DNA from: Ferrimonas sp. YFM
GTDB taxonomy: Bacteria; Pseudomonadota; Gammaproteobacteria; Enterobacterales; Shewanellaceae
Assembly: GCF_030296015.1 (NCBI RefSeq)
Contig: NZ_AP027368.1
Span: 1,364,001 to 1,428,000 of the forward strand
DNA: 64,000 nucleotides
Direction of reading: 5' to 3'
In this document: piece by piece, positions 27,491 through 60,876 of the stretch
Position numbering within the stretch: the first letter of the stretch is position 1
Layout: every line of letters begins with the position of its first letter
Program-made: the position numbers and the translations under genes
Notes under the pieces: model-generated
What the model was told of the DNA's origin: nothing
Database searches by the model: none
The model's input: only the letters and a program-made list of their open reading frames with translations

Positions 27491-28399
27491 TTAACTTAAT
27501 TGAGTGAGTTTGGCACTGCCGCCCTGGTGTTTGCGAAGTCCACTGCCGATAACGGCAGCCAGCCCTCCCCATATCAGCATAAAACCCAGCAACTGCTCCG
27601 GAGGACACAGCTCATTGAACACCCAGATCCCCAGCAGGAACTGCAGGCTGGGATCGATAAACTGCATCAGCCCGTAGGTGGTGAAATTGACTTTCTGAAT
27701 GCCGTGATTGAGCAGGGTCAGGGCAAAGAGGATGAGGGGGGCGAAGCCAAGCTGCAGCCACAGGCTGCTCTGGTCGCTGATCAGGCTGGGCTCTCCCTGC
27801 CAGTGGAGGTAGCCCCAGTACCCCAATGCCAGGGGCAGGACCGCCAGGTGCTCCAGGATTAGGGAGGTGAAGGTGTCGGTTTGGGCGCACTTTTTCAGGA
27901 AACCGTAGAGGGCGAACAGGGCGCCTATCCCTACTGCCAGGAGTACAGAGAAGCTGTGGTTGCCAAATTGCAGCATCAGGCCGATGGCCGCCGCAATCAG
28001 GGCCAGCTTTTGCAGCGGGGAGAGTCGCTCCCTGAGCAGCACCACGGCCAGCAGTACGGACACAAAGGGTGAGAGATACTGTCCCAGGCTGGCGGCGAGG
28101 ATCTGCTGGTTGAGGTAGGCCCAGATACTGAGCAGGCCGGCGGCCATGGCCAGCGGCGCCGCCAGCATGCAGCACAGGGCGGCTTTGGGGTCACGTTTGA
28201 CCTGACGCAGCAGGGGACGCCACTTACCCCTGACAAGAAGCAGGCCGAACAGAATGGCGCTGCCCAGGATGATTCTCAGGGCCACCAAATGGGTTACCTG
28301 GGTCTCGGGCATCAGGTTCAGGTAGAGAGGCAGCATCCCGAAGATGCTGAACGCTATCACGATTTCCAGTTTATGAAACAAGGGACCCACCTCAGGCAA
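27491..28399 (-). CDS. EamA/RarD-type membrane transporter
   Basis: This 302-aa protein has ten hydrophobic segments and two EamA-like halves, the drug/metabolite transporter architecture. The phrase LAASLGQYLSPFVSVLLAVVL aligns with the RarD-specific pattern SLGYFINPL, and LMQFIDPSLQFLLGIWVFNE matches its second half. It lies next to a second RarD-type gene on the same strand with a 73-base gap and is likely an older tandem duplicate. The substrate is unknown. The start at 28399 may be slightly early; the first membrane helix begins near residue 10. Confidence 0.82.
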   Translation of the reverse strand: MPEVGPLFHKLEIVIAFSIFGMLPLYLNLMPETQVTHLVALRIILGSAILFGLLLVRGKWRPLLRQVKRDPKAALCCMLAAPLAMAAGLLSIWAYLNQQILAASLGQYLSPFVSVLLAVVLLRERLSPLQKLALIAAAIGLMLQFGNHSFSVLLAVGIGALFALYGFLKKCAQTDTFTSLILEHLAVLPLALGYWGYLHWQGEPSLISDQSSLWLQLGFAPLILFALTLLNHGIQKVNFTTYGLMQFIDPSLQFLLGIWVFNELCPPEQLLGFMLIWGGLAAVIGSGLRKHQGGSAKLTQLS

Positions 28400-28472: not shown

Positions 28473-29390
28473 TTAAGTCGAATCGGAAGTGTGGCTTGGC
28501 TGCCGGGTGGTTCTGCGCCGAATGCCCGCCATGGCTTCCACAGAGCAGAGCAGCAGCCCCAGCCAGATCAGGCCAAAGCTGACGGCTTTGACCTCGTCAA
28601 AGGCTTCGGCAAACACCAGGGTGGCCAGCAGGAACTGCAGACTGGGCTCGATGTACTGCATCAGTCCCACCATGGTCAGACTGGTGCGGTTGATGGCCAG
28701 GGTAAAGAGCACCAGGGGGATCAGGGTCACCGGGCCGGCGCCCAGGTAGAGCAGCAGGGTGGCGGTGTCCGAGGTGATAAAGGTCAGCCCCTGAGTCTGG
28801 CCGCGCCAGACAAGGTAGGCCAGGGCAGGGGGGATCAGCAGCACCGCCTCCACCATGACCGAGTTGAGGGCATCGAAGCGGATGAATTTCTTAATCAGAC
28901 CATAGAGGGCAAAGGCGCCACCCATCACCAGGGAGAGCCAGGGAAGCTCACCATATTGCCACACCTGGTAGCCGATGCCGGCGGTGGCCAGGATCACCGC
29001 GGCGCGCTGTGCCGGGCTGAGTTTGTCACCCAGAAAGAGCACCCCCAGGGCGACCGCCATCAGAGGGTTGATAAAGAATCCCAGGCTGGCGGCCAGAACC
29101 TGGCCGTTGGTCAGGGCCCAGGTAAAGCTGTACCAGGAGGTGCACATGACGGTGGAGGCCAACAGGCAGAGCAGCAGAGAGCGTTTGTCTGCCCACATGG
29201 CGCTCAGGGAGAGCACGGGTCTGCGCAGCACCAGAATAAGCAGCAGCATGGCCGGTGCCGAGGTGATGATCCTCAGGGCCAGCATCTCCTCCATCTGAGC
29301 GCCCTCCAGCGGGGCATAGTAGAGAGGAAGCAGGCCATAGGCCACGAAAGAGAGGGCTGCCAGCAGGTTGCCGAGTCGGGTTGCGCTCAT
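28473..29390 (-). CDS. rarD: RarD family EamA transporter
   Basis: This 305-aa protein starts at ATG 29390 and has ten hydrophobic segments. The core LAASLGFFINPLMAVALGVL and the later LMQYIEPSLQFLLATLVF match E. coli RarD closely. RarD was named from chloramphenicol-related phenotypes, but its substrate is not established. It lies next to a more diverged paralogue at 27491-28399. The C-terminal tail RRRTTRQPSHTSDST is cytoplasmic. Fairly sure about family, less so about strict orthology. Confidence 0.82.
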   Translation of the reverse strand: MSATRLGNLLAALSFVAYGLLPLYYAPLEGAQMEEMLALRIITSAPAMLLLILVLRRPVLSLSAMWADKRSLLLCLLASTVMCTSWYSFTWALTNGQVLAASLGFFINPLMAVALGVLFLGDKLSPAQRAAVILATAGIGYQVWQYGELPWLSLVMGGAFALYGLIKKFIRFDALNSVMVEAVLLIPPALAYLVWRGQTQGLTFITSDTATLLLYLGAGPVTLIPLVLFTLAINRTSLTMVGLMQYIEPSLQFLLATLVFAEAFDEVKAVSFGLIWLGLLLCSVEAMAGIRRRTTRQPSHTSDST

Positions 29391-53840: not shown

Positions 53841-54728
53841 TTAAGCTTCCGCTTTGAAAACTTCAAGTTTCACCTGGCTGACTGTGGCCAGAGCATCGCT
53901 GGCGCTGTGAACAAAGCTGATCTGACCCCGAGCACTCTCCACCAGCACGGCGCGGCGGATGCTGTCGAAGGGCAGTCCCATACGAGCCATGCCGTTCAGA
54001 GCGATCTGCATCGCTGGCAGACTGGGATTGAAGGCGGCGTTCTCGGCATAACGACCCACAAACACCCGGCCGGTATCCGTCTCCAGGGCGATGGCCGCCG
54101 GAGTCTTGGAGTAGGGGGCGTAGGAGGCGTTGGCCTCACGCAGGGCACGTTGCACCAGGGAGTCGTCACTCTCCAGCACCATTTCATGGTCGTTGCCGTC
54201 CAGCAGGCCATCTTCCATACCCAGGTCCTTGGGCCCGAAGGCGTAGGGCAGGTAGTGGGTCAGAGGCTGGGGTTGCTGCTCGGGCAGACGGATGGTCAGG
54301 CCTTCGTTGTTGTTCAGTTCGGTCATGAACTGACGACAGTGGCCGCAGGGAGAGTAGTTAACGGTGATCCCCACCAGTTTACGCTCGCCCGCCAGCCAGG
54401 CGTGGCTGATGGCGGATTGTTCGGCGTGAACGGAGTGGAACAGGGCTTCCCCTACCAGCTCCATGTTGGCGCCCATATAGGCGTCGCCAGACACCCCATG
54501 GGCGATGGCACCAACAAAGAAGTTGGAGATGGGCGCGTAGGAGAGTGTCGCGGCGATGGGCAGCAGAGCCAGGTACAGCTCGGTGCCGCTTAAGCCGGAT
54601 TTCTCACTGAGCTCCTTCAGCTGATCGGCGGACAGGTGACCGGCAAAATGCTCGGTCAACATGGGGGCTACCGCCTCCGCCAAGGCTTCGGGCATCTGAG
54701 TCAACGCGTCGGCAAAACGGGTACTCAT
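53841..54728 (-). CDS. cdd: Cytidine deaminase
   Basis: Cdd deaminates cytidine and deoxycytidine to uridine forms in pyrimidine salvage. This is the long dimeric E. coli-type enzyme (295 aa from ATG 54728, MSTRFADALTQ). The catalytic HAEQSAISHA is near residues 100-110 and the zinc cysteines PCGHCRQF near 127-134; the C-terminal half repeats the fold without the active site. GAGG directly precedes ATG 54728; TTG 54734 is the longer alternative. It is convergent with the dehydrogenase gene and followed upstream by sbcB. Confidence 0.95.
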   Translation of the reverse strand: MSTRFADALTQMPEALAEAVAPMLTEHFAGHLSADQLKELSEKSGLSGTELYLALLPIAATLSYAPISNFFVGAIAHGVSGDAYMGANMELVGEALFHSVHAEQSAISHAWLAGERKLVGITVNYSPCGHCRQFMTELNNNEGLTIRLPEQQPQPLTHYLPYAFGPKDLGMEDGLLDGNDHEMVLESDDSLVQRALREANASYAPYSKTPAAIALETDTGRVFVGRYAENAAFNPSLPAMQIALNGMARMGLPFDSIRRAVLVESARGQISFVHSASDALATVSQVKLEVFKAEA

Positions 54729-54844
54729 CCTCAATCCTCAATTTATGAAACTGGGTTACAGTTTAGGTGGTTGCGGATCGTTCTGATGTGACGCCGATCA
54801 CACCCACTTCCAAATATAGGGGAAGTGGGCAACATTTCTTTAAT

Positions 54845-56254
54845 TTACAACGATTGGAGATGATGATAGAGCGCTTTCAGTAACGCCATCTTGGTCTCAT
54901 CCTGTTGATGCGTCTCCACTAACTGCTCCAGTCGCATCACGTACTCGGGGTCGTTGATCCGCTCCTGGCAGTGGTTGTGCCAGCGTTTCTGCTCCTGCTC
55001 GGACAGGGTCTGCGGGAAGTTGCGGGCCCGGAAACGGAAGAACAGCGGGGCCAGCCTGGGGTCGCTGAACTGAGGGTTGAGCGCCGCCAGGTGCTCCGGC
55101 GCCGTGGTGCGGATGAGCTCCATCTGACTGCGGTCGCTATCGGAGAAGAAGCCGCCGTACAGCTGCTGGTCCACATCCCGGCTGTCGTCCGAGGCCCACT
55201 CTTCGCTGTAGAGGGCGGTGAGCTTCTCCCGAACCTGCTGATGGTGGCTGCGCAAAAGCTTGTAGTTGTCACGACAGCGCTGCTTATCCAGTCCCAGCCG
55301 CTCTGCCTGGGCATCTTCCAGGGTGGCCGCCGGGGCGATGAAGGGGCTCTTGTTGAAGTGCAATAGTTTCACCGGCACCCGCAGGTCACCTTCATTGAGT
55401 TCACGACTTGGGGTGTACAGCCGCTCCTTGAGCTGTTCGGCACTCCATTCGATCAGTGGGGTGACGTCCTGATGCAGGTCCACCACCACCACGGCGTTGC
55501 GGTTCTCCGGGTGCCAGGCCATGGGCATCACCAGGGTGGTGCAGCCCTGGCTGGCGGGGAAGCGTGAGGAGACATGGAGCAGGGGCTTCATCGCCAGCAC
55601 ATCCACCAGCTTGGCCACCGCCTGCTTACGCCTCAGGCCAAAGAACCAGTCGTACAGCTTGGGCTGAGCCTCTTTGATCAGCTTGGCCAGGGCGATGGTG
55701 GCCTGAACGTCGGACACCGCATCGTGGGCATTGCCGTGATCCAGGCCGTTGGCGGCGGTCAGATGCTCCAGCTTGAAGCTGGGGTTGCCGTCTTCGCGCA
55801 AGGGCCACTCTATGCCTTCGGGACGCAGCGCGTAACAGGCGCGAACCAGATCGATGATGTCCCAGCGGCTGTTGCCGTTTTGCCACTCCCGGGCATAGGG
55901 ATCATGGAAGTTGCGATACAGGGTGTATCGGGTTACCTCATCATCGAAACGGATGGAGTTGTAACCGACGGTGCAGGTGCCAGGCTTGGCCATCTCCGCT
56001 TCCACCTTGGCGATAAACTGCGCCTCAACCTCACCCAGGCGGTTGGCCCGCTGAGGGGTGATGCCGGTGACAAACATCGCTTCCGGGGAGGGCAGGTAAT
56101 CTGCGGGCAGTTTGCAGAACAGCTCTATGGGCTCGCCGATGGGATTGAGATCCAGGTCGGTGCGGATGGCAGCGAACTGCGCCGGGCGATCGGAGGAAGG
56201 GTTGGCACCCCAGGTTTCATAGTCGTGCCACAGCAGGCTTGGGCCGTCGGTCAT
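54845..56254 (-). CDS. sbcB: Exodeoxyribonuclease I
   Basis: SbcB degrades single-stranded DNA 3' to 5' in recombination and repair. From ATG 56254 (MTDGPSLLWHDYETWG) it is 469 aa, the normal length. The DEDDh exonuclease residues appear as HDYET at the N-terminus, GYNSIRFDDEV near 95 and HDAVSDVQATIALAKLI near 180; the SH3-like and C-terminal regions follow. The frame is open to 56401, but that part is a copy of the end of the transglutaminase gene (see 56311-56429) and is not coding for SbcB. A TATACT at 56292-56287 (minus strand) is a possible -10 element. Confidence 0.95.
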   Translation of the reverse strand: MTDGPSLLWHDYETWGANPSSDRPAQFAAIRTDLDLNPIGEPIELFCKLPADYLPSPEAMFVTGITPQRANRLGEVEAQFIAKVEAEMAKPGTCTVGYNSIRFDDEVTRYTLYRNFHDPYAREWQNGNSRWDIIDLVRACYALRPEGIEWPLREDGNPSFKLEHLTAANGLDHGNAHDAVSDVQATIALAKLIKEAQPKLYDWFFGLRRKQAVAKLVDVLAMKPLLHVSSRFPASQGCTTLVMPMAWHPENRNAVVVVDLHQDVTPLIEWSAEQLKERLYTPSRELNEGDLRVPVKLLHFNKSPFIAPAATLEDAQAERLGLDKQRCRDNYKLLRSHHQQVREKLTALYSEEWASDDSRDVDQQLYGGFFSDSDRSQMELIRTTAPEHLAALNPQFSDPRLAPLFFRFRARNFPQTLSEQEQKRWHNHCQERINDPEYVMRLEQLVETHQQDETKMALLKALYHHLQSL

Positions 56255-56286
56255 CGAAACTCGGTCTTTTACAGGAATTTGGGCTG

Positions 56287-56292
56287 AGTATA
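56287..56292 (-). promoter_or_regulatory. Possible -10 element for sbcB
   Basis: TATACT on the minus strand, 33 bases ahead of the sbcB start. No good -35 partner is visible, and the -35 region overlaps the displaced repeat copy. Confidence 0.3.
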
Positions 56293-56310
56293 CACCAGTG
56301 CGCCGCTGGC

Positions 56311-56429
56311 GACACTCGGGCCACCCTAGCGGATCTCCATCGCAGAGCCCGAGCCGATCTCGGCTTTCAGGGCCCGGCGCAGCTTCAGGAACTGGCGCCA
56401 CATCGCCAGCCGCAGCAGCCGGCGCTTGC
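56311..56429. repeat. 119-bp direct repeat, copy 1 (displaced 3' end of the transglutaminase gene)
   Basis: Identical to 57996-58114 except for three substitutions. On the minus strand it still encodes the last 33 residues and stop codon of the transglutaminase (one Val to Ile change, others silent), but no start codon serves it. With copy 2 it brackets an AT-rich insert, as attachment-site repeats do. Confidence 0.9.
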
Positions 56430-56982
56430 GGATCCGGCTATGCTTTTTGTGATTGATTTTCTTGGCTGTGTTTGGGCGAAGTGAATTTCACATAGATATC
56501 CATAATCGAGAGGATGGTTTCGTCAGGCAATCACTACCGAACACACGTTAACCTTGTGTGTTGGTCCCAAGGATGTGCTCTTTAGCCTCAAAGCTTTTTG
56601 CTACGACTTTGATAGGAGTATTCCTTGTCTCGTTGTAGGAAATAGTCAATCGTTTGATTAAGGCGAAATGATACTGTTGTGATTTGAGATTTCTTTTGTT
56701 GTGGAGCTGGGGCTAATTAAACTGCATAGGTGGGGAATTACTGGTTGAATTAACTGTTAGGTTGTTGTTTGGGTGGTTGATGCGGCTTGTTTAACATGTC
56801 GTTTACAACTGATTTGTTTTATGAATTTACGTTCTGTCAATAGCTGATATATAATTTTTTAAATATAGACAGGAACATTCTCTTTACATAAATTACTTTC
56901 ATCAAGTTCAAGTGATTCAGGGTCTATTGGCGCCCGAAGTTGTACTTGATGGGAAGTAAATAATTAGACATAGGATGTAAGT
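56430..56982. other. AT-rich island, gene-free left part
   Basis: 553 bases with markedly lower GC than the flanks. Short minus-strand frames are present but none has a credible start; a basic stretch (KKINHKKHSRIRKRR) runs into repeat copy 1 with no start codon. A 7-bp dyad around 56539-56560 and a perfect TATAAT at 56850-56855 are the only signals seen. Confidence 0.6.
56850..56855 (+). promoter_or_regulatory. Possible -10 element for the island gene
   Basis: TATAAT in an AT-rich stretch, 128 bases before the gene at 56983. The -35 candidate 17 bases upstream (TTACGT) is weak. Confidence 0.35.
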
Positions 56983-57687
56983 ATGTTTTTTAAAAAGATA
57001 GCAATTGTAGCAATGCCGCTTATTCCACTCGTCGCCTCCTTTGGTGTTCAGGCTCTCGATGCTGATGATTATGAAATGGTAAGAGAAACTTTTGGAGTGT
57101 ACAATTGGACTAATTGTAGTTATCAAAAAGGTAGTGGTGAGCCCAATTTTTATAATCTTAAGGGTGGGTTGCAGCCTTATGTGCCAAGACACTATAAGGG
57201 ACTGACTGCAACAGGTTATATCGACAAGGTAGATACTTCGGCTCCCTCAGAAGACTTGGTCACACCTTATAAAATAGGTTGTTACCAAGATCAGTATCTG
57301 CCAAACGCAGAGACCCAAGTATTGTGGCACAACTACAGGCCGAAAGTGTCTTTTACCTATTCAGAAGATCGCTATTGGAGCGGAGGAGTAAATAAAGTTA
57401 CATTTACGGCTAATGCTACTGATTATGATGGTTACATCGAACAGTATACATGGTATGTAAATGGTGTAAAACAGGTGTCAACTAATAATACATTAACTTT
57501 TTACACTTTTGATGGTGGAACGCATCGGGTAAGTGTTAGGGCGCAAGATAACGGTAGGAAGTTTATTCATTCCAGTCAAGAATATTGGTATAACTTTGGC
57601 GAGCCCGCTATGAAGCTAACTGCAGAGGATACAAGAGAAGTTGTCCTGAGCCCTTGGAGTTGCCTGGGCCGTTGTGACCCTCTTTAA
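56983..57687 (+). CDS. Secreted protein with PKD-like domain, sole gene of the island
   Basis: This 234-aa protein starts at ATG 56983 with a signal peptide (MFFKKIAIVAMPLIPLVASFGVQA, cleavage before LDADD). The middle part (about 30-115) is not recognised and contains Cys45 and Cys100. Residues about 117-195 look like a PKD or Ig-like fold: TFTANATDYDGYIEQYTWYV, then GGTHRVSVRAQDNG. A Cys pair lies near the C-terminus (CLGRC). Codon use is AT-rich, unlike all neighbours, as expected for transferred DNA. AGGATG a few bases upstream may serve as ribosome binding site. No function can be assigned. Confidence 0.7.
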   Translation: MFFKKIAIVAMPLIPLVASFGVQALDADDYEMVRETFGVYNWTNCSYQKGSGEPNFYNLKGGLQPYVPRHYKGLTATGYIDKVDTSAPSEDLVTPYKIGCYQDQYLPNAETQVLWHNYRPKVSFTYSEDRYWSGGVNKVTFTANATDYDGYIEQYTWYVNGVKQVSTNNTLTFYTFDGGTHRVSVRAQDNGRKFIHSSQEYWYNFGEPAMKLTAEDTREVVLSPWSCLGRCDPL

Positions 57688-57995
57688 CGTTAAAATATGT
57701 AGAAGATGAAAGCCTAATAATCTATGGGTCTCAAGTTCAATGAGCGCCCATAGATATTGCCATTAACTACTAATCTTACTAAGATCTTCCAATTTAAAGT
57801 TGTGGCTCGGGTATTGCATTCTAAGCTCTATTTAACCCCTTTCTATAAGAGAAAAATAACTGAGTTTTTGCTGTGTGTCATATTTTTCCCTAGAATTTTT
57901 TGGCCTAAATTCGAGTCTTCAGAGTGTAGAACTGGCCTGAATCTGTGTACATCTCTGTTTTATCCGTCACTTTCTAAGTGGTTTGTGATAGCAAG
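57688..57995. other. AT-rich island, gene-free right part
   Basis: 308 bases with low GC. It holds a hairpin at 57720-57755 after the island gene and no credible gene. A plus-strand open frame (57757-58014) runs into repeat copy 2 and shows no protein character. Confidence 0.55.
57720..57755 (+). terminator. Hairpin after the island gene
   Basis: A 9-bp stem (57720-57728 with 57747-57755) encloses an 18-base loop, 32 bases after the stop codon. There is no T-run, so termination is uncertain. Confidence 0.4.
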
Positions 57996-58114
57996 GACAC
58001 TCGGGCCACCCTAGCGGATCTCCATCGCAGAGCCCGAGCCAACCTCGGCTTTCAGGGCCCGGCGCAGCTTCAGGAACTGACGCCACATCGCCAGCCGCAG
58101 CAGCCGGCGCTTGC
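57996..58114. repeat. 119-bp direct repeat, copy 2 (in place at the 3' end of the transglutaminase gene)
   Basis: Matches 56311-56429 at 116 of 119 positions, same orientation. It supplies the working C-terminus and stop codon of the transglutaminase gene. Confidence 0.9.
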
Positions 58115-59972
58115 CAGGAGGGAGGTCGGCGTAGCGCAGGCGATAGAACAGCCGCTGCAGCAGGCGTACAGGGAGAGAGGCCGGCGGGCAGTGGTGGCGG
58201 GTCATGGCCACCAGTTGGGAAACCGAGGTGGCGGGGCCGGGCTGGGCACCGAGGCGACTCAGACGCTTGGACAGCCAGCGCCACAGCAGCAGCTCCGGCG
58301 CCGGCAGCCTGGGTGGGGTCAGCATTCTGGCCAGTTTCAGGTGAATCAGCAGGGTGGTGAGCACTATGGCGGCTGCCAGCAGCATCAGGTTCTGAACGGA
58401 GAGTTTACCCAGCCACTGGCTCAGCCATTGCTGCTGACTGAGGCGGTCAAAGCCGCTGACCTGCTGATGCCACAGGGCATTGAGGCTGTCGGCCCAGGCG
58501 CCCAGGGTGCGCACCGGTGCGCTCTCCTTCAGCCAACCTGAGAGTCCCCACCACTGGGCCAATCGTTGTTCCCCCAGTATCTGTACCCGGTCCGGGGCCA
58601 CCATGTTGGTGGGGTCAGTGCGGATCCAGCCCTGGGCCGGCAGCCAGTACTCCACCCAGGCGTGGGCATTGAGCTGACGAACCTGCAGCCGGTTGCTGTC
58701 GCCCAGCCAGCGTCCGCCCTGATAGCCGGTGACCAGCCGGGCGGGGATGCCGGCGGCCCTGAGGACGAACACCATGGCACCGGCATAGTGGCCGCAGAAT
58801 CCAGCCTGGGTGTCGAACAGGAAATCATCGATCTCATTGGGCCCTGTGGCGGGCGGCGACAGGGTGTAGTGGAAGGGATTATCCCTGAACCTGCGCAGCA
58901 CCCGGTGAACGATCTCCCGCTGGCTGAGCCCCTTTAAGGATTCTCCCAACTGCCTGGCCCTGGGGTTGCCCGAGGCGGGCAGCATCAGCGCCTCGGTGAT
59001 GGCCGCGGGGGCCGCCGGAATTGCCCTGGGTCGCCAGCTCAGTACCTGGTCCTGCTGAATCCGGCCCTGCCACAGCCCATCCCCCAGGGGACGCATGCCG
59101 GGGGAGAGTCCCTGGCTCATGGCCAATGTGGGTAACCTGACTCCGGAGTACCAATGACTGATGCGATACAGGTGACCCTCTTCCGCCCGGGTGGCGGTGA
59201 TGGCGTCCAGGGGGTAGGGGCGGGCCCCGTGCCAGGTGCGGCCATCATAGAGGTTGTGGATCCACACCCGGAAGTAGAGCAGCTCCTGAGGCGGTCGCAG
59301 TTCGAAGCTGGCGTTGAAGGCCATCTCGGTGGACTGGGTCAACTCGGCGATCTCCCCCAGCGACAGGGTGTCGCTCAGGCCGGTTTGTGCCCCGGGGCGC
59401 ACGCCCTGGTGCCAGAGGGGGTCCACCCTGGGCACCAGCAGGTAGAGCAGCAGAGTCATGGGCAGGCTGAACAGCGCCAAGCGCAAGGTGGTACCTAGGT
59501 TGCTGCGGGCAGAACTGCTGCTGTGCAGGCTCAGCAGCACGGTGATGTTCAGGGTGAACAGGGCCAGGGCCGACGCCAGTTTCAAGGGGGATTGCTGAGG
59601 GATGAGGCTCAGTGAGATGAGGAAAAAGCCCACCAGGGTCAGCACCAGGATGTCGCGCCGGGAGCGCACCTCCAGGGATTTGAGGCTGTAGGCCAGGGCG
59701 ATCATCACCGACAGGGTGATGGCCAGCCCCTCCCCCAGATAGAGGGGCACCAGGCTCAGCAGCACCATGAGTGAGATCAGAAACAGCACCCAGGGCCGGG
59801 GAGGCGGGACCTTGCCCAGGAAAATGGCCAGTCGCCAGGCCAGGGCCAGGTTGGCGATGGCCAGGGCCCAGTCCGGCAATATGCCTATCAGGTGGACCAC
59901 CATCATCTGTTGGGTCAGCAGCAGCCACCCCAGAGTTTGGCGGAAGGCTGCCTGCGGGAATTCAGCGACCAT
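58011..59972 (-). CDS. DUF3488/transglutaminase-domain membrane protein
   Basis: From ATG 59972 (MVAEFPQAAFRQTLGWLL) this is 653 aa: about six N-terminal membrane segments (DUF3488 region, 12-190), a periplasmic transglutaminase-like domain (about 230-510), one more segment (about 548-565) and a cytoplasmic C-terminal tail with a DUF4129-like look. The catalytic triad is visible as Cys in GFCGHYAGAM near 394, His in NAHAWVEYW near 435 and Asp in WIRTDPTN near 451. Such proteins pair with MoxR ATPase and DUF58 genes; the substrate is unknown. It overlaps the DUF58 gene by 11 bases. The last 33 codons lie in repeat copy 2. Confidence 0.9.
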   Translation of the reverse strand: MVAEFPQAAFRQTLGWLLLTQQMMVVHLIGILPDWALAIANLALAWRLAIFLGKVPPPRPWVLFLISLMVLLSLVPLYLGEGLAITLSVMIALAYSLKSLEVRSRRDILVLTLVGFFLISLSLIPQQSPLKLASALALFTLNITVLLSLHSSSSARSNLGTTLRLALFSLPMTLLLYLLVPRVDPLWHQGVRPGAQTGLSDTLSLGEIAELTQSTEMAFNASFELRPPQELLYFRVWIHNLYDGRTWHGARPYPLDAITATRAEEGHLYRISHWYSGVRLPTLAMSQGLSPGMRPLGDGLWQGRIQQDQVLSWRPRAIPAAPAAITEALMLPASGNPRARQLGESLKGLSQREIVHRVLRRFRDNPFHYTLSPPATGPNEIDDFLFDTQAGFCGHYAGAMVFVLRAAGIPARLVTGYQGGRWLGDSNRLQVRQLNAHAWVEYWLPAQGWIRTDPTNMVAPDRVQILGEQRLAQWWGLSGWLKESAPVRTLGAWADSLNALWHQQVSGFDRLSQQQWLSQWLGKLSVQNLMLLAAAIVLTTLLIHLKLARMLTPPRLPAPELLLWRWLSKRLSRLGAQPGPATSVSQLVAMTRHHCPPASLPVRLLQRLFYRLRYADLPPGKRRLLRLAMWRQFLKLRRALKAEVGSGSAMEIR

Positions 59973-60876
59973 GAGGCACCCCGGCCAAGCTGTCGAGAAT
60001 CCGGCCCAGGTGATTGCCATCCAGGCCTGGGGGGATCTCCATATGAGGCCCCCGGAGTCCGAAGGGGACCCCCTGCTGCTGACAGTGCAGTGCCGCGCCG
60101 GTCAACTGACTCAGGTGCTGCTCCAGATCGCCGTGGCCAGGGTTGAGCTCCAGCCAGAAGGCCTGATTGTTGTTGTCATTGAATTGTTTGAGCATCTTGC
60201 CGCGCTGTCTGGCCAGCTGTTTCCAGTCCATCCGTGAGAGGCTGTGGCCGGGTTGCCAGGGGCACAGGCCATCAAGCTCCTGCCATTGGCTGGTCTGGGA
60301 GGGGGAGGAGACTGCCGGGATGGACCGGTCGGGTGGGGTCGGGCTGGGCCAGACCCAGCATCCGACCTCTGGCCTGATGTGGGCCCAGACCCGGCACAGG
60401 CCCAGGGGATAGTGACTGCTGACTCGCACCCTGCCGGGCAGCAGCCGGCCGCGCCGTTTTCCCAGTGTGCCCAGCTCCAGTCGTTGCCCCGGCGTGACCA
60501 GAAGTTGCAACCTCTGCTGTGCCCCCTTGTCCAGGCTGAGGGTCAGGGCATGGCGCGCCCGGTCGCTGGCCAGTTCCAGGGGGAACCCCACCTGCTCACC
60601 GGCAAAGCCGGAACGGCCAGGCTGAAACCTCAGGGAGAGCCCGGACAGGTTGCGAAAGCAGATAAGCAAGCAGGAGCTGAACAGGCTGAACATCAGGAAG
60701 GAGAGGATCAGGATCAGATTGTTCTGGTAGTTGGAGCCAAAGACGAACAGCACCCCGGCCAGGGCAAGGTAAAAGATGCCAAATCGAGAGGGCAGAATCA
60801 GTATGTCGTTGTGTTCCAGCCGCGCGTTGGGGGAGGCCTGGATCTCAGGGGGCTGCCAGAATTTGGGGATCTTCAT
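59962..60876 (-). CDS. DUF58-domain protein
   Basis: This 304-aa protein has two membrane segments near residues 33-72 (IFYLALAGVLFVFGSN, then LILSFLMFSLFSSCLLIC), and the DUF58/VWA-like domain in the rest, with a CxWxHYPLGLCRVW-like stretch near 150. The gene overlaps the MoxR gene by 4 bases (60873-60876) and the transglutaminase gene by 11 bases. MoxR-DUF58-transglutaminase operons are widespread; the DUF58 protein is thought to act as a membrane partner of the ATPase. The exact role is unknown. Confidence 0.87.
   Translation of the reverse strand: MKIPKFWQPPEIQASPNARLEHNDILILPSRFGIFYLALAGVLFVFGSNYQNNLILILSFLMFSLFSSCLLICFRNLSGLSLRFQPGRSGFAGEQVGFPLELASDRARHALTLSLDKGAQQRLQLLVTPGQRLELGTLGKRRGRLLPGRVRVSSHYPLGLCRVWAHIRPEVGCWVWPSPTPPDRSIPAVSSPSQTSQWQELDGLCPWQPGHSLSRMDWKQLARQRGKMLKQFNDNNNQAFWLELNPGHGDLEQHLSQLTGAALHCQQQGVPFGLRGPHMEIPPGLDGNHLGRILDSLAGVPHGR

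Follow-up and report, generated by a model that had tools for sequence, protein, structure and literature searches.

An AT-rich insertion between 119-bp copies of a transglutaminase gene end in Ferrimonas, possibly formed with duplication of its target

In the genome of Ferrimonas sp. YFM, an AT-rich segment carrying one orphan gene lies between a transglutaminase-like (TGase) gene and an sbcB-type exonuclease gene and is bracketed by two copies of the TGase 3′ end. We regard it as a real, recent and rather ordinary insertion, and the recurrence of insertion at this one junction as mildly surprising. With a probability of roughly 0.52, we consider that it entered with duplication of a 119-bp host target, through general or illegitimate recombination or a single crossover, and not by means of a dedicated integrase. 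This reading was adopted because two unrelated inserts were found, both with long duplications of the one gene end and neither with a recognisable recombinase. The window below is the whole stretch of 64,000 nucleotides that was analysed, and the features of the junction are collected in Table 1.

Table 1. Positions in the window of the repeats, the insert and the neighbouring genes.
Feature	Positions	Strand	Basis
sbcB-type exonuclease gene, other side of the junction	54845..56254	-	ORF; RNase_T, Exonuc_X-T_C; start codon picked by eye
TATACT hexamer, sbcB leader	56287..56292	-	adjoins sbcB in all five clade species
Copy 1, detached duplicate of the TGase 3′ end, sbcB side	56311..56429	-	self-comparison, own-genome search; native sbcB-side flank common to G009 and G012
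AT-rich insert, 1566 bp, missing from sister species	56430..57995	.	GC profile, locus comparison, DNA searches
Orphan ORF, 234 aa, with Ig-like part	56983..57687	+	ORF list; Pfam Big_7 23.5 bits, just under the cut-off of 24.1
Stable hairpin 3′ of the 234-aa ORF	57721..57754	+	folding z -3.1 for 57688-57800
Copy 2, TGase 3′ end in use (33 codons, TAG, 15 bp)	57996..58114	-	ORF list, repeat search, own-genome search
TGase-like gene (TgpA-type), 3′ end duplicated	58011..60020	-	ORF; Pfam TgpA_N and Transglut_core

Self-comparison confirmed the earlier observation that the two repeats match at 116 of 119 bases in the same orientation (97%; 97.5% alike), the three differences between copy 1 and copy 2 being C/T, A/G and C/T. 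Since the block matched nowhere else in the 4.66-Mb own genome at an E threshold of 0.001 (E 1.1e-56 and 8.6e-53 for the two places), the pair is not a chance resemblance. The earlier note had described the block as the last 33 residues and the stop of the TGase gene; the codons and the TAG stood, but the block runs 15 bp beyond the stop. Its remark that copy 2 alone is continuous with the gene was right as well, and so was its description of about 1.57 kb of AT-rich DNA with a single gene between the copies. The insert has 39.1% GC, against 60.1 and 65.6% in the 2 kb on either side, and is foreign-looking, AT-rich DNA. Searches with its DNA gave no match in plasmids and phages, and among 13 congeners yielded only short matches (E 0.12 to 0.86). 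On the sbcB side, the conserved hexamer of the sbcB leader may have a promoter role. No Rfam family matched at gathering scores in window positions 54500-60500 or in the loci L150 and L035. Two further observations concern the window. Positions 56300-56330 of the TGase-sbcB spacer are without about 48 bp that are found in F. futtsuensis, a segment that seems rich in GC and might contain a hairpin following the TGase gene; another direct repeat, of 56 nt at 82%, was noticed at 27618-27673 and 28612-28667.

The 234-aa ORF is the one plausible gene of the insert: in the ORF list of the window, which holds frames of at least 60 aa, the other ORFs touching the insert have at most 91 aa, leaving aside frames that belong to the flanking genes or begin within the repeats. 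Its N-terminus resembles a secretion signal, so the product reads like a secreted protein. A promoter-like site lies ahead of it at 56826-56855 (6 such sites were found against 3.2 expected), and no terminator-like site was found. Searches for relatives returned only the protein itself in 14 genomes of the genus and in 369 genomes of the class, and seven others in 394 genomes of the order, with E values from 3.3e-4 to 8.4e-4 and all over the Ig-like part. No relative was found in viral contigs or phages; a single partial match among plasmids (E 9e-3) is annotated as an Ig-like domain protein. Solved structures gave no match at E 1, and structure prediction from the single sequence was poor (mean pLDDT 43), being better only in a strand-bearing part, residues 121-204.

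The state before insertion was sought in 15 other TGase loci, from 13 congeners and two family members, 10 of which had sbcB within the stretch compared. In F. futtsuensis (G009) and F. sediminicola (G012), the TGase gene is followed directly by sbcB and has a single 3′ end, which is the empty site that the earlier note had proposed to look for. In the TGase tree, the own genome (G000) groups with G009 (support 100/99), then with G012 (100/100), and then with a pair formed by G005 and G008 (83/81); the tree was midpoint-rooted and two long branches (G002 and G024) were flagged, and the placement of G005 and G008 is less sure. Because these nearest relatives have the empty site, the insertion is taken as derived, and the pattern is most simply read as a fairly recent, single insertion, with one genome per species compared and the own species represented by one strain. 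Over the block, either copy is about 75% identical to F. futtsuensis (86/114 and 85/114) and the two copies are 97.5% alike; therefore, the duplication is younger than the split from this sister species, or the copies were homogenised by gene conversion. The same values do not polarise the copies. The proposal that copy 1 is the displaced original agrees with the native sbcB-side flank found there, but its other half, that copy 2 came with the element, is unsupported, the copies being equidistant from the sister species.

Two of the 15 loci, those of G005 and G008, contain a direct duplication of the TGase end, which again surrounds an insert at the TGase-sbcB junction. The duplicated block of G005 measures 167 bp at 82% identity (169 alignment columns) and comprises 49 codons, the stop and 16 bp beyond it, which reach into the sbcB leader and include TATACTCAGCG; the match in G008 extends over 128 bp at 74%. 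TATACT also lies within the G005 block and was not kept in copy 2 of G008. This second insert, of about 590 bp and more diverged, is 90% alike between both genomes, and no DNA shared with the window insert was detected. Frames of flanking genes aside, no ORF touching these inserts exceeds 76 aa. The inserts carry a 56-aa gene, membrane-protein-like, that occurs once in each of five of the 14 genomes of the genus: at the TGase-sbcB junction in G005 and G008, and elsewhere in G000, G009 and G012, where it adjoins a gene that was labelled low-molecular-weight phosphatase-like from a reading of its protein sequence. The DNA upstream of the phosphatase-like gene of G005 held no copy of the 56-aa gene. 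In addition, about 155 bp of the insert match, with 79% identity, intergenic DNA at another place in G005. At one joint in G005 stands CTGAGT, which is also present in the target and in the G009 copy of the 56-aa gene, a copy that serves as comparison and is not the true donor; the hexamer is incomplete in the G000 and G012 copies. The G005/G008 insert thus holds host-type DNA from at least two settings.

Two repeated elements were noticed in the DNA of these species. Upstream of the 56-aa gene, an inverted repeat TTAGGC...GCCTAA occurs at both loci inspected, L035:3854-4024 (G005) and L160:1495-1755 (own genome, contig position 3168539-3168700). The motif GGTCTCCAAAACCG is shared by intergenic DNA of G005, G008 and G012 (L150:1552, L035:4356 on the minus strand, L036:4517 on the minus strand, and L173:1562), with one base different in L035 of G005. 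We take it to resemble the anticodon arm of tRNA-Trp; no tRNA was called at the motif sites, and a dispersed repeat and an old attachment site are both possible.

The neighbourhood of the TGase gene varies among the remaining congeners. A profile search identified the gene overlapping the TGase end in G001, G011 and G013 as MltF-like (SLT and SBP_bac_3), and in G002 the gene after TGase is a Na+/H+ antiporter, so that this neighbourhood has been rearranged between species. In G002 (L039), a stretch of 32 nt that matched at 84% was not counted as a duplication of the TGase end. Eighty further loci, mostly Pseudomonas-like, were also searched for duplicated TGase ends, which is how all the other loci were examined, the overlap of the query with its own end being filtered out. 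Two of them (L075 and L116) were too short, which left 78; these include L056 and L057, the loci of F. futtsuensis and F. sediminicola already counted above, and none of the 78 had a duplication of the gene end longer than 58 nt. Short matches (E 0.01) in 26 of the 78, the longest of 58 nt and many of them inverted, were not counted as duplications.

We propose that the window arrangement may have arisen in one event, in which AT-rich DNA with the orphan gene would have entered the TGase-sbcB junction while 119 bp of the target were duplicated. The joining could have proceeded by template switching or by repair of a staggered break; alternatively, a single crossover with a circle carrying a short piece of the TGase gene would leave the same structure. 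The duplication would restore the TGase end and leave the sbcB leader intact, so that events of this kind may persist at gene ends, and the 119-bp repeats could allow later loss of the insert by homologous recombination. What was found is foreign DNA between two copies of the duplicated target, with no recombinase recognised. The host-type DNA of the G005/G008 insert fits duplication of the target better than it fits an element, and by analogy, which is all that the G005/G008 case can offer for the window, it would support the same mechanism there. Duplications of this kind have been obtained experimentally in E. coli: among 60 Lac-minus recombinants, 56 yielded a PCR product that is diagnostic for duplication of the lacZ end, 14 sequenced duplications measured 109-950 bp, and single crossovers of circular DNA were concluded to be the cause, while homology-facilitated illegitimate recombination (HFIR) proper is described there as usually producing deletions, not duplications (PMC3240628). 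The proposal of target duplication is weakened by the fact that a regenerated 3′ end with a displaced fragment is also left by integrase islands. Moreover, the single-crossover route needs a circle that already has the TGase tail, and this route does not explain the first joining.

The principal competitor, which we consider possible and hold only tentatively, is that the insert is what is left of a site-specific integrative element, or a satellite of one: recombination between attP and an attB in the TGase 3′ end would have let the tail of the element regenerate the gene and displace the original, with the integrase later deleted or acting in trans. Such an element would account for the regenerated end and the displaced copy, for relatives with an empty site, for AT-rich orphan cargo and for the second insert at the same junction in G005 and G008, and the e14 element in icd has the same anatomy with a 163-bp repeat (PMC6379469). 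The own genome has eight matches to the tyrosine recombinase family PF00589, enzymes that could act in trans, which counts against target duplication. When these eight were examined as domains, two were Xer-like below the cut-offs, one was an integron integrase over its cut-off, one was an integrase domain below the cut-off, three were weakly Xer-like and one gave no match; a distance of about 470 kb separates the TGase-sbcB junction from the nearest of the eight. Within the insert, as the earlier note had stated, no recombinase was recognised among the ORFs, and no phage or NCBIfam family either. A larger element between TGase-end repeats, which it had proposed to look for, was seen at none of the 15 loci or the 78 further loci (one genome per species, via duplicated gene ends), the repeat block is without a match in phage or plasmid records, and the insert, at 1.57 kb, is smaller than the 2-kb minimum applied in a published survey of islands (PMC12424338). 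Of the mobile-element reading, the derived insertion is supported; a recombinase or a larger element is not, and the host-type DNA in the G005/G008 insert counts against it. The remark that a protein-coding 3′ end is unusual as an attachment site fails as a general statement: in a survey of 1.76 million mapped islands, 43.4% fell in coding sequences, with some false positives anticipated by the authors and 3′ ends not counted separately (PMC12424338), and e14 uses the 3′ end of icd (PMC6379469).

Two other explanations appear improbable. First, the TGase end may have been duplicated once, long ago, in an ancestor common to the five species; the duplication would later have been lost in G009 and G012, with the spacer replaced in G000 and gene conversion keeping the G000 copies alike. 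In favour of this, both duplications involve one and the same gene end and reach 15-16 bp beyond the stop codon; the two inserts, however, share no detected DNA, the inner boundaries of the blocks differ (119 against 167 bp), and the tree demands two losses and one replacement. Second, and equally doubtful, the TGase-sbcB junction might be a docking site for tiny one-gene cassettes without a recombinase, inserted in trans with a copy of 120-170 bp of the gene end by an enzyme of host or foreign origin; the 56-aa gene, found at two loci, would then be another such cassette.

Known classes of small elements are hardly credible. The repeat lies at the 3′ end of a gene and its length is like that of repeats in diversity-generating retroelements (DGRs), and an integron integrase is encoded in the own genome (TIGR02249, 288.7 bits against a cut-off of 265); nevertheless, a DGR pair, an integron cassette and an insertion sequence or MITE were each rejected. 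Against a DGR speak the types of difference, only one of the three falling at an adenine of copy 1, and the insert is without an ORF of reverse-transcriptase size. Against a cassette, no RYYYAAC/GTTRRRY pair 35-160 bp apart, as expected for attC, was found in the insert, by a crude pattern whose stricter form also missed the attC-like repeats of the genome's own integron, and comparison of the insert with that integron region gave nothing beyond 16 and 14 exact bases. An insertion sequence or MITE is opposed by the lack of a terminal inverted pair joining the insert ends; a separate search for inverted arms spanned arms up to 150 bp apart. A phage satellite of the PICI or P4 type was set aside, with no phage-related genes in the insert and, in PHROG at E 0.1, only a match to a Hoc-like protein (0.021) over the Ig-like part, and so was a tRNA attachment site, with no tRNA called anywhere in the 64-kb window. 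The chromosomal integron itself (L167-L168, own genome 2941000-2980800) encodes the integrase that exceeded the TIGR02249 cut-off; its attC-like repeats measure about 100 bp, and its region contains a 1.5-kb duplication at 98%.

With an empty site in the sister species and repeats that are 97.5% alike, the window offers a clean case in which a new gene was acquired at the end of another and left that one undamaged; the TGase-sbcB junction was probably hit twice among five related species. Should insertions of this kind occur without an integrase, direct repeats bordering an insert at a gene end would not suffice to identify a mobile element, which would bear on the calling of small islands.

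Several known systems resemble the insertion in part. The e14 element in icd is likewise inserted at the 3′ end of a protein gene, regenerates that end and leaves a displaced copy of 163 bp, but it is a 15.2-kb prophage, whereas the window insert has 1.57 kb and no recognisable recombinase (PMC6379469). The islands in protein genes mapped by TIGER/Islander share the empty site in relatives and the direct-repeat borders, yet that survey admits only islands that encode an integrase and measure 2 kb or more (PMC12424338), and neither is true of the window insert. Small variable genome segments are similar in being short and lineage-specific, and in one study 41-56% of E. coli microdiversity loci were ascribed to illegitimate recombination; repeats flank only 10-18% of such segments, however, and most of these repeats are below 30 bp, against 119 bp here (PMC2884548). 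Finally, the single-crossover insertion duplications from the HFIR assay in E. coli differ in that their homologous piece came from a laboratory construct, and they agree with the window in that foreign DNA came to lie next to a 109-950 bp duplication of a gene end and that an integrase is not required (PMC3240628).
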